A DNA stretch of 38,624 nucleotides from Clostridia bacterium (lineage in GTDB: Bacteria; Bacillota; Clostridia; Christensenellales; UBA1242): the NCBI GenBank assembly GCA_009929275.1, contig SAAW01000010.1, forward strand, positions 1 to 38,624, given 5' to 3'. Made by a program: the position numbers and the translations under genes. Under the pieces are notes generated by a model. It was not told the origin of the DNA, ran no database searches, and was given only the letters and a program-made list of their open reading frames with translations. This document shows, piece by piece, positions 34,101-37,220 of this stretch. Within the stretch, counting starts at the first letter, position 1. Every line of letters begins with the position of its first letter.

Positions 34101-34327
34101 AAAAATTTCCTCAAAATAGAATTTGAACATTTCTAGTATATTTCAAAGAGATAAGAAAATCAAATGCTTTTATTTTATTAGCATAAAAACAAAGATAAAA
34201 TTATCTTTAAACATTTTTTCTTGCAGTAAGATAAAAAAAGTAGTAGAATGATTTTTGTTAAACATAGCGGTTGTGAAGCGTAATTCTATTTCAAAAAACG
34301 CTTGCTAAGGTTTAAAGTTATTCATAT

Positions 34328-34400
34328 GCGTCACTAGCTCAATTGTATAGAGCATCGGTCTTCGGAACCACTCTTCGGGGGTTCAAAAAACACGGCTAAA
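34328..34400 (+). pseudogene. decayed tRNA-Arg copy
   Basis: GCGTCACTAGCTCAATTGTATAGAGCATCGGTCTTCGGAAC is nearly the 5' half of the intact tRNA-Arg 86 bases on, but the anticodon stem is broken (TCGGT against ACCAC) and the 3' half reads GGGTTCAAAAAACACGG with no matching acceptor strand. A tandem duplicate that has lost function, or a scar of an earlier integration. Confidence 0.75.
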
Positions 34401-34413
34401 AAAAACTTAATAT

Positions 34414-34490
34414 GCGCCATTAGCTCAATTGGATAGAGCATCAGTCTTCGGAACTGAGGGTTACGTGTTCAAATCATGTATGGCGCACCA
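34414..34490 (+). tRNA. tRNA-Arg (TCG)
   Basis: GCGCCAT pairs with ATGGCGC; anticodon stem TCAGT/ACTGA encloses CTTCGGA, giving anticodon TCG. T arm ACGTG/CATGT with loop TTCAAAT, CCA encoded. Its 3' end is the likely attachment site of the element to the right. Confidence 0.95.
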
Positions 34491-34499
34491 GAAAGCCTT

Positions 34500-34639
34500 T
34501 TGCCGAAAAGGGCTAAAGCCCTTTGAACGCCAAGGTTCTCGCATTGCGAGGTTCTTATATTATGGGTATTGTAGCAGTTGCCGAGCCTAATTATAAATTA
34601 GGCGAACGCCAAGACAACACGTCGTGTTGTCTTATTTTT
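34500..34639. repeat. paired two-hairpin modules with shared linkers
   Basis: Two units of the form TTGCCGA, hairpin A, GAACGCCAAG, hairpin B. Unit 1: linkers at 34500 and 34525-34534, stems AAAGGGCT/AGCCCTTT and CTCGC/GCGAG. Unit 2: linkers at 34578 and 34604-34613, stems GCCTAATT/AATTAGGC and AAGACAACA/TGTTGTCTT. The linkers are identical while the stems are unrelated yet always paired. Unit 2's last stem is followed by TTATTTTT. Confidence 0.7.
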
Positions 34640-34768
34640 ACAGGTCGCTACTTTTTTATTTTATTGCCAAAAATTCGAACCCCTAAAACGGTTTTTTGCT
34701 TGTTTTTGGTTACAATTTTTCATAGATAAAAATACATCAATTTTGACCAAAATGTTCAAAAAAGTGCG

Positions 34769-34801
34769 TTTGTCACGAATTTGTCACGAATTTGTCACGA
34801 A
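34769..34801. repeat. three tandem TTTGTCACGAA repeats
   Basis: Perfect 11-bp unit three times in direct tandem, between the attachment site and the integrase gene. The position fits arm-type binding sites of the integrase at 34917 (inference). Confidence 0.8.
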
Positions 34802-34882
34802 TTTTTGCAAGAGTGCCGTATTTTATCGTATGTTTACGCCTATTATTTTTTGGTGATTTTTGCAAAAAATCTGCAAACATTA

Positions 34883-34914
34883 AAAAAGGCAAGATTTCAA
34901 AATCTTGCCTTTTT
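34883..34914. terminator. strong bidirectional terminator after the integrase gene
   Basis: AAAAAGGCAAGATTT and AAATCTTGCCTTTTT form a 15-base inverted repeat two bases before the minus-strand integrase stop codon. Confidence 0.9.
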
Positions 34915-34916
34915 CC

Positions 34917-36167
34917 TTACATTTCAGACTCATCTTGCATTCTTTTCTTCCGTTTTTCTGCAAGCAATCTTTCCAACTCTTTAATTTCATCGTCTATCAT
35001 TTGCTTTTCATCTTTTTCACTTAGCATAGAACTTATTATGTTTGCAGATTCTATTTTGGCTGAGAAATCAAGATGAGAATATATGTCTGCCGTTGTGCTA
35101 AAATTTGAATGCCCTAACCACTCTTGAATATTTTTCATGGGAACACCACTAGCCACAAGCAAACTTGCGCACGAATGCCTTAGGTCATGAAAGCGAATGT
35201 GCTTAAGACCATTTGCCCTTAAAAGTTCTCTAAATTTATTTGAGACATAATCAGGGTTAATGATGTCGCCAATATCATCTACAAAAACATAGTCTAAGTA
35301 TTTTTTGTTATAACTTCTGCCATACATAAGTTTGTTATCTTCAATCTCTTCTTTTCTTTCAATCAGTAATTTTTCAGTTTCTGGCAACAACGGAAGCTTT
35401 CTATGACTTGATGCCGTTTTCAATGTGTCGGATAAATATACTCTTCCCTCAACCGTTAAAATTTTATGGCTTATTGAAATAATCTTATTTTCAAAATCTA
35501 TTGCACTCCATTTAATCCCCATCAATTCACTTCTTCTTAAGCCATAATAAGCGGCCATTCGCACAATTAAACCGATTGCCGTTTTGTCGGTTATTTTAAA
35601 CAGCTCATCTAGTTCTTTCTTGTTATAATAACTCATTTTAGATTTTTCTTTCTTTATCTTCGGCATAAACTCATAAGGATTTTTTGATATCAAATCATCT
35701 CTATATGCCTGTCTTAGTGCTGGAGATAAAATAATTGCATGATGCTTTACTGTAATGTTTTTATTGCCTCGCTCTTTCTTAAGATAATCATAGTAGCTTA
35801 GTATGTGTTGATATGTAATATCTTTTAGTTTTTGCTTTTTCCCGAAATACAATTTCATTATTTTGTGACAAGATATATAAGAGTGATAAGCAGGTGGTGA
35901 AAGCTCTTCTTTTTTTGCATCAATATAACTTTTGATATAGTCCACAAAAATAATATCATTACTTGTTTTAGGCTTTTCATTCTTTTGAATACTTTCAATT
36001 GGTTTATAGGTTTCTAGTTCTTTTTGCAAAAAAAGTTGCGCCTCTTTTTTATTACCTCTTTCACTTAACCCTGTTGGAATCCACTTTTGTTTATATCTTC
36101 CAAATTCGTCCTTATAATTTACAACTGCATAGAATAAACCGTTTTTAACTTTCAATCTTCCCGTCAT
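34917..36167 (-). CDS. int: tyrosine-type integrase of the tRNA-Arg element
   Basis: Four hundred sixteen residues. N-terminal arm-binding domain (LKVKNGLFYAVVNYKDEFGRYKQK), SAM-like domain (FVDYIKSYIDAKKEELSPPAYHSY), catalytic domain with YGLRRSELMGIKW (Arg I), LPLLPETE hairpin, HDLRHSCASLL (His and Arg II), LGHSNFSTTADIYSHL (His and Tyr). All catalytic residues are intact. This is the Tn916/phage-like integrase layout. Its start codon overlaps the stop of the upstream HTH gene (ATGA); GGAGG lies nine bases before it. Likely recombines at tRNA-Arg. Confidence 0.96.
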   Translation of the reverse strand: MTGRLKVKNGLFYAVVNYKDEFGRYKQKWIPTGLSERGNKKEAQLFLQKELETYKPIESIQKNEKPKTSNDIIFVDYIKSYIDAKKEELSPPAYHSYISCHKIMKLYFGKKQKLKDITYQHILSYYDYLKKERGNKNITVKHHAIILSPALRQAYRDDLISKNPYEFMPKIKKEKSKMSYYNKKELDELFKITDKTAIGLIVRMAAYYGLRRSELMGIKWSAIDFENKIISISHKILTVEGRVYLSDTLKTASSHRKLPLLPETEKLLIERKEEIEDNKLMYGRSYNKKYLDYVFVDDIGDIINPDYVSNKFRELLRANGLKHIRFHDLRHSCASLLVASGVPMKNIQEWLGHSNFSTTADIYSHLDFSAKIESANIISSMLSEKDEKQMIDDEIKELERLLAEKRKKRMQDESEM

Positions 36168-36384: not shown

Positions 36385-37077
36385 TCACATTTCCATCTCA
36401 GACTTAGATTTTCGATCCATCTGACTACAATCAAGCAAATTATTAAGTGCAGTTAAAAACCTCTTGTTTTTAAACAAATTATAGTTATTGTAAGTATTTT
36501 TTGGTTTGTTGAATTTGTGGTCAAATCTCGTCCAAGCTCGGTAGTAGTCATAATCTCTCGACTGGTTGCAAATGAAGCCTTCTAGGCTTAATCTAAGCCC
36601 TGAAACCAGCACCTCAGGTAAATCATTATCTCTGCAGAGATATCTTATGTTTCTGCTTAGTGTGTTTACATTCATTCTTGAACCATCTTTCTTTAAACAA
36701 ACATAGTTTATGTTACTATCGTCGCCATGCTTTTCAAAGTCTAGTTCTTGTTGTTCTTTCAGTTCTAAAAGCAGTTTTTTAATGTGTGGCAAAAGAGGAA
36801 AGGTTCTTTTAAACTCAGTCAATTTTTCAATGTACCAGCTGTAATAAAACTTATTTGTCACTGTGTATGAAATTGGATGTATTTCAATTCTATCATTCTC
36901 AAAATCAACATCTTGCCATTCTAAACTCATTAGTTCCAATTTAGAAAACTGATATGCCAAAATGAGTTTAATGTATATTTCATACTTTGTGTCTTTTGTA
37001 AACTTTAAAAACTTCTTCACTTGTTCAAGAGTGAGAAGATTTTCTTTGCGAGCATTAATATTTTTTTTACTTATCAT
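36385..37077 (-). CDS. degenerate tyrosine-recombinase-like protein
   Basis: A catalytic-domain-only relative of tyrosine recombinases. LLTLEQVKKFLKFTKDTKYEIYIKLIL and KLELMSLEWQDVDFEND match the start of the catalytic domain, but Arg I of G-L-R-x-S-E-L is Ser (QFSKLEL) and the H-x-L-R-H box reads SGLRLSLEG, losing both His while keeping Arg II. FDH and NTYNNY might stand for the last His and the Tyr. No arm-binding domain. The track starts at 37113; AAAAGGA precedes the ATG at 37077 (MISKKNINARKEN), so about 230 residues. Its stop codon (ATGTGA) overlaps the start of the HTH gene. Probably an accessory or regulatory partner of the integrase rather than an active enzyme. Confidence 0.65.
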   Translation of the reverse strand: MISKKNINARKENLLTLEQVKKFLKFTKDTKYEIYIKLILAYQFSKLELMSLEWQDVDFENDRIEIHPISYTVTNKFYYSWYIEKLTEFKRTFPLLPHIKKLLLELKEQQELDFEKHGDDSNINYVCLKKDGSRMNVNTLSRNIRYLCRDNDLPEVLVSGLRLSLEGFICNQSRDYDYYRAWTRFDHKFNKPKNTYNNYNLFKNKRFLTALNNLLDCSQMDRKSKSEMEM

Positions 37078-37220
37078 TATTTTTTTCCTTTTCAATTCTA
37101 GTTTTATCTCCATCAGTTATCTCGTTCAAATAATGATCTCTCTTTCAATTGTTGTGTTTTGTTTTACTAATACCTCCTCATTTTTTAAATTTTTATATCT
37201 CTAACTCTTTTATGTCCCTC

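Follow-up and report, generated by a model that had tools for sequence, protein, structure and literature searches.

In integron attC sites, short boxes of fixed sequence flank a self-complementary stem that is free in sequence and in which perfect pairing matters most, and REP stems, which are of conserved sequence, require a RAYT (Y1) enzyme. Integrases that target tRNA genes cross over in the anticodon and T loops, and tyrosine integrases normally exchange over 6-8 bp. In Gut-1 RNA (RF01706), short hairpins of free sequence are strung on fixed GUGAAAU linkers in gut bacteria. REP/BIME elements and the small bacterial palindromic repeats are short palindromes, tens of bases long, that are scattered through genomes and carry no gene (reviewed in PMC2229807). 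ICEMh1, an ICE, uses the anticodon loop as a direct repeat and leaves one intact and one broken tRNA (PMC6861422), while the B. cereus pseudo-tRNA known as tRNA-Other is a defective tRNA that borders a genomic island and forms part of a larger regulatory RNA (PMC3399842). All of these resemble, in one respect or another, the hairpin units considered here.

The two units occupy the 3' flank of an intact tRNA-Arg gene with anticodon TCG (34414..34490, plus strand; ARAGORN and Rfam tRNA), the probable integration site, in a window of 38,624 nucleotides, by which the whole stretch of DNA analysed is meant. Both read TTGCCGA-hairpin-GAACGCCAAG-hairpin, with identical linkers and four unrelated, self-complementary stems, just as the initial annotation had described them. 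Unit 1 (34500-34556, plus strand) consists of the linker TTGCCGA (34500-34506), a first hairpin AAAGGGC-TAAA-GCCCTTT (34507-34524), the linker GAACGCCAAG (34525-34534), and a second arm AAGGTTCTCGC-ATT-GCGAGGTTCTT (34532-34556). Unit 2 (34578-34633, plus strand) is built from TTGCCGA (34578-34584), the first hairpin GCCTAATT-ATA-AATTAGGC (34585-34603), GAACGCCAAG (34604-34613), and a second arm AAGACAACAC-GTC-GTGTTGTCTT (34611-34633). It is enclosed by a closing stem, evident from sequence and fold, with its 5' strand GTAGC at 34571..34575 and its 3' strand GCTAC at 34647..34651 (both plus strand); in the homologue of unit 2 found beside tRNA-Arg(TCG) in another genome (G342) this stem is GCGAT/ATCGC instead.

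A degenerate tRNA-Arg copy (34321..34396, plus strand) lies upstream of the intact gene, with 90% identity over its first ~48 nt (34321-34368), and is the sole tRNA-Arg repeat seen, the contig end at 38624 preceding any second element end. Truncated tRNA-Arg 5' halves upstream of tRNA-Arg also occur, without the module, in G010:C52 and G001:C9. On the other side, a tyrosine integrase gene (34917..36167, minus strand; PF00589, E 7e-28, and PF13102) is convergent with tRNA-Arg and lies 427 bp from its 3' end, the adjacency expected of a tRNA attachment site. Between the units and the integrase, three perfect 14-bp direct repeats TTTGTCACGAATTT with 11-bp spacing (34769..34804, no strand assigned) are candidate arm-type integrase binding sites, a role suggested by resemblance. 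A likely terminator, a perfect 15-bp inverted repeat with a T-rich run behind it (34883-34914), lies just past the stop codon of the integrase, and a short phage-integrase-like ORF upstream of the main integrase (36385-37113, 242 aa, PF00589) is possibly a remnant. An Rfam search of the window returned tRNA alone above chance.

The 142-nt stretch that holds both units folds better than dinucleotide shuffles, with RNA z-scores of -3.3 on the plus strand and -4.7 on the minus strand; unit 2 alone reaches a z of -5.2, and the fold of unit 1 alone is not significant against shuffles (z -1.1). The linkers can pair mutually, TTG.CG with CG.CAA, with a C.C mismatch in between, and other copies largely retain this outer linker-linker helix. 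With the linkers paired, the first arm becomes a single long hairpin whose internal loop, A/GAA, is conserved. The initial view of the linkers as conserved, single-stranded tracts therefore holds for their conservation, but not for obligatory single-strandedness.

A linker-only pattern search recovered perfect-stem copies in a congener (G010) and in a genome from another family of the order (G044), the latter with eight dispersed copies. The covariance-model check proposed in the initial annotation was run with a model built from five copies, in which unit 1 (49.7 bits, E 6e-12) and unit 2 (53.7 bits, E 3e-13) were both included, their scores in their own genome being read in that light. It found a third locus in the window genome (G000:C66), matches in G004, G010, G063, G087, G108, and G144, and covarying stems. 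Across 14 distinct sequences, 9 pairs had changed on both sides, with 91% paired cells, although the alignment had been fitted to the structure and the counts are thus biased in its favour. The covariation score was 0.355 vs 0.085 in shuffles, none of 500 shuffles reached 0.355, and slid structures lost the covariation. When 309 genomes of the family were scanned with a looser pattern, 65 of them gave matches; roughly half of these were judged to be stem-forming copies and the rest chance. Exact linker pairs enclosed a stem of at least 4 bp in 15 of 47 cases in relatives, where many more held a 2-bp GCGAAGC mini-hairpin, against 3 of 169 in unrelated genomes and viruses, a control set from exact-pattern scans of viral and genome contig collections that contains essentially chance matches without stems. 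Across hundreds of genomes, covariance searches were insensitive, since too few candidates were scored in each, and pattern scans replaced them. Most of the genomes are fragmented assemblies, related species do not contribute independent copies, and the collection of copies began from linker searches, to which a flank-only test at tRNA-Ile, described below, is the sole counterweight. The two units belong to a family of dispersed hairpins whose linkers are conserved and whose stems covary, one of the possibilities raised at the outset, and their exclusion from tRNAs and CRISPR arrays is likewise supported.

Proximity to tRNA genes is general in this family, which bears out the interest initially attached to the closeness of the units to an attachment site. 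A tRNA gene lies within 500 bp of 37 of the 55 curated copies, which come from 36 genomes; 38 have a tRNA-like half on one side, and 49 show at least one of these features. More often than anywhere else, the module sits in the anticodon loop of a truncated tRNA-Ile copy, in which a tRNA-Ile 5' half (..GAGCACCACCCTG) is followed by the module and by TATAAGGTGG.., beside an intact tRNA-Ile. The mirror fusion, with sequence X, the module, and a tRNA 3' half, involves tRNA-Ile in G433, G446, and G487 and the anticodon loop of tRNA-fMet in G232. In G010, tandem units follow tRNA-Thr and end in the tRNA-Thr 3' end ATTCCCGCCATTAGCTCCA, with the hairpins at the T-arm position. An extended second-arm frame, AAGGTTCT..AGGTTCTT, is common to unit 1 and to the tRNA-Ile inserts of one genus (g50). 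Moreover, the homologue of unit 2 in G342 is inverted within the same flanks in G352; at this tRNA-Arg locus the two congeners of genus g50 (L372 1030-1110 and L341 1480-1570) carry the module in opposite orientations, with one closing stem and different stems inside.

In the flank-only test, which was blind to the linkers, inserts in the tRNA-Ile anticodon loop were sought by their flanks alone (GCACCACCCTG-N50..80-TAAGGTGG) in 297 genomes, and 17 inserts were found in 15 genomes of 6 genera. When these were classified by eye, 14 of the 17 had linkers that differed by no more than one change or insertion, two (G356 and G413) had a first arm of the form TTA-stem-GCAA, and in one (G001) the linkers had decayed and the stem survived. 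Thus, what stays constant is the two-hairpin insert itself, most often with TTGCCGA/GAACGCCAA as its first arm; the claim that the linkers are fixed stands for the majority of inserts but not for these three, in which the stems persist. Stems broken beside intact linkers, the pattern that had initially been named as counterevidence, were not seen among the 17 inserts, whereas the reverse was; the linker-based searches had required stems.

The 24 distinct first-arm stems comprise 126 Watson-Crick pairs, no G-U pair, and 2 others, an indicative count from stems preselected for two outer Watson-Crick pairs and 60% Watson-Crick pairing overall, a few of which are probably chance. Among the longer second arms, as folded by program, G-U accounts for 31 of 319 pairs, and it is absent from the short, simple second arms. 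A minimal hairpin GC-GNA-GC, of the d(GCGNAGC) type, occurs in more than 20 copies, and GNNA tetraloops make up 16 of 39 in the modules vs 40 of 558 in the background (p 3e-8); half of them are GNYA, as common as GNRA, whereas the RNA rule (GNRA) would exclude GNYA. Hairpins with GNA or GNNA loops, for any N, are a class reported to be extraordinarily stable in DNA (PMC4686876). The absence of G-U pairs from the first-arm stems, the DNA-type loops, and the in-place inversion, in which the linkers stay intact and the strand relative to tRNA-Arg changes, favour a DNA palindrome rather than an RNA. It is doubtful that the module belongs to a tRNA-operon transcript in which a two-hairpin junction replaces the anticodon loop of the truncated tRNA and serves in processing or as a decoy or regulator. 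Such an RNA would agree with the strong covariation, with loops optimised on the module strand, with tRNA-Ile copies in sense orientation upstream of the intact tRNA-Ile and in the same direction, with a TTGACA/TATAAT-like sequence that can be read ahead of the first copy in G087, and with the B. cereus precedent mentioned above. However, the orientation at tRNA-Arg in G352 is antisense, whole tRNA-module copies fold only mildly better than shuffles, with modest z-scores, and no Rfam family matches them. The covarying pairs were found, yet they are not decisive for RNA, since DNA palindromes maintained by template switching would look alike. The selection on structure that was initially read from the stems is thus only partly borne out: the covariation is real, but with no G-U pairs, GNA/GNNA loops, and in-place inversion it is not proof of such selection.

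Template switching during replication creates perfect stems, repairs those already present, and inverts loops (PMC8794818; also PMC8604942), and thus stem perfection alone is not proof of function. The hairpins could on this basis be neutral, having been generated and perfected in redundant tRNA copies and intergenic DNA, with functionless linkers maintained by descent and gene conversion, an explanation that we consider possible, if rather unlikely. Perfect Watson-Crick stems, in-place inversion, the decay of the tRNA copies that host the module, and the alternative or decayed first arms in 3 of the 17 inserts agree with it, but sixteen linker bases are the same in several genera in which the stems and portions of the host tRNA copy vary, and template switching leaves this lack of drift unexplained. 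It is the linkers, not the perfection of the stems, that need explanation. Very improbable, by comparison, is that the window units are merely terminators of tRNA-Arg which share a linker through local duplication. The units stand in tandem, 78 bp apart, and the strong hairpin at the end of unit 2 is followed by TTATTTTT, so that this last hairpin may act as an intrinsic terminator as a side effect; nevertheless, copies in tens of genomes combine these linkers with different stems, in most cases lack a T-run, and frequently lie upstream of an intact tRNA. The initial rejection of a terminator series therefore stands for the family, although not for the last hairpin of unit 2.

The reading that we prefer, tentatively, places the units in a family of DNA modules that form hairpins and reside where mobile elements integrate at tRNA genes. 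The half-tRNA/module fusions would then be attL/attR-like scars of integrase traffic, and the module would fold into hairpins when single-stranded, during replication, transfer, or recombination. The linkers might serve as fixed recognition tracts for a recombinase or an accessory protein, and the stems would need only self-complementarity, being re-perfected by template switching and/or by selection on the folded single strand. The anticodon-loop position in many genera and the presence of both fusion types (5' half-module-Y and X-module-3' half) speak for such a DNA module. A tyrosine integrase lies beside the module in the window and in G010, and a large serine recombinase beside the X-module-tRNA fusions in G433; integrases are recognized by motif only in G330, G355, and G001, and probably in G435. 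In G433:C1 (L397 1970-10200), a stretch of ~8.2 kb with a large serine recombinase and a tyrosine-recombinase-like ORF lies between two X-module-tRNA-Ile-3' half copies. Against the integration-site reading, many loci (e.g., G398, G432, and G487) have no recombinase nearby in flanks that are short and assemblies that are fragmented, and some copies lie outside tRNA contexts, namely those in G429, G010:C2, and G010:C34, among other palindromic repeats, and in G044, among Gut-1-like hairpin arrays. Moreover, ordinary integration does not explain a 60-80-bp module at the crossover, since exchange usually spans 6-8 bp. A Y1 transposase (PF01797) was considered as a mobiliser, being a candidate hairpin-acting enzyme; it is present in G010 and G433 but absent from the window genome (G000, a 95%-complete draft) and from G087, G440, G342, and G044, and it was set aside for its absence from the window genome. 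A more specific proposal, which we regard as distinctly unlikely, is that a recombination system acting on folded single strands inserts or exchanges hairpin cassettes exactly in tRNA anticodon and T loops, with TTGCCGA/GAACGCCAA as recognition tracts and the stems left free.

Compared with the systems outlined at the beginning, Gut-1 is the nearest known in design, with its free-sequence hairpins on fixed linkers; however, in place of GUGAAAU-type linkers the window has TTGCCGA/GAACGCCAAG, GTGATATT occurring solely in the arrays of G044. Gut-1 gave no match in the window even at E 10 and no match at the Rfam gathering score in 14 module loci; the module-bearing arrays of G044 fall short of its threshold (E about 1e-5 to 1e-6, 31-43 bits vs a gathering score of 50). 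These arrays (L262, L263, L264, and L265) are dispersed, intergenic runs of short hairpins with GTTATATT/GTGATATT linkers and sub-threshold Gut-1 similarity, often directly after a gene end. The idea that in G044 the module, as a 66-nt insert, interrupts a Gut-1 hairpin within its loop was dropped, because sister arrays have the module after a complete hairpin. With attC the module shares fixed short boxes around a free self-complementary stem, but its boxes are 5' GTTGCCG and 3' CGCCAAC, not RYYYAAC/GTTRRRY, stand in reversed order, and lie at tRNA genes. It is short, dispersed, and without a gene of its own, like REP/BIME and other small palindromic repeats; unlike REP/RAYT, it has free stems (24 distinct) and fixed linkers and occupies tRNA loops, and Y1 transposase is missing from the window genome. 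The break in the anticodon loop, with one intact and one partial tRNA, recalls the attachment site of ICEMh1 (PMC6861422), as does the integrase that adjoins the tRNA in the window and in several, not all, relatives, whereas ordinary att sites have a short identical core instead of a two-hairpin insert and many module loci are without an element. As in B. cereus tRNA-Other, a defective tRNA is involved, but no hairpin module is reported for it in the abstract (PMC3399842). A T-box found no Rfam match in the 14 module loci, and a group I intron or a split or permuted tRNA was rejected, there being no Rfam intron match and intact tRNA genes adjoining. The module lacks the tested defining features of Gut-1, attC, and REP/RAYT, and no Rfam family covers it. 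A literature search found no prior report of tRNA-loop hairpin inserts or of the module repeat, which is not proof of absence. The module is best classed as an uncatalogued member of the dispersed palindromic elements, in this case one sited at tRNA genes.

A functional RNA is by convention demonstrated through covariation in its stems. This family has textbook covariation yet a DNA-like fine signature, which makes it a natural test case for template-switch palindromes against selected RNA. In a clade with very small genomes, a recurrent hairpin module is tied to tRNA anticodon loops, a classic point of entry for mobile DNA, and the broken tRNA copies could reveal in which order elements integrated and hairpins were gained. 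If the system of folded-strand cassettes were real, the attC-like principle of a folded site would have evolved independently on tRNA genes.
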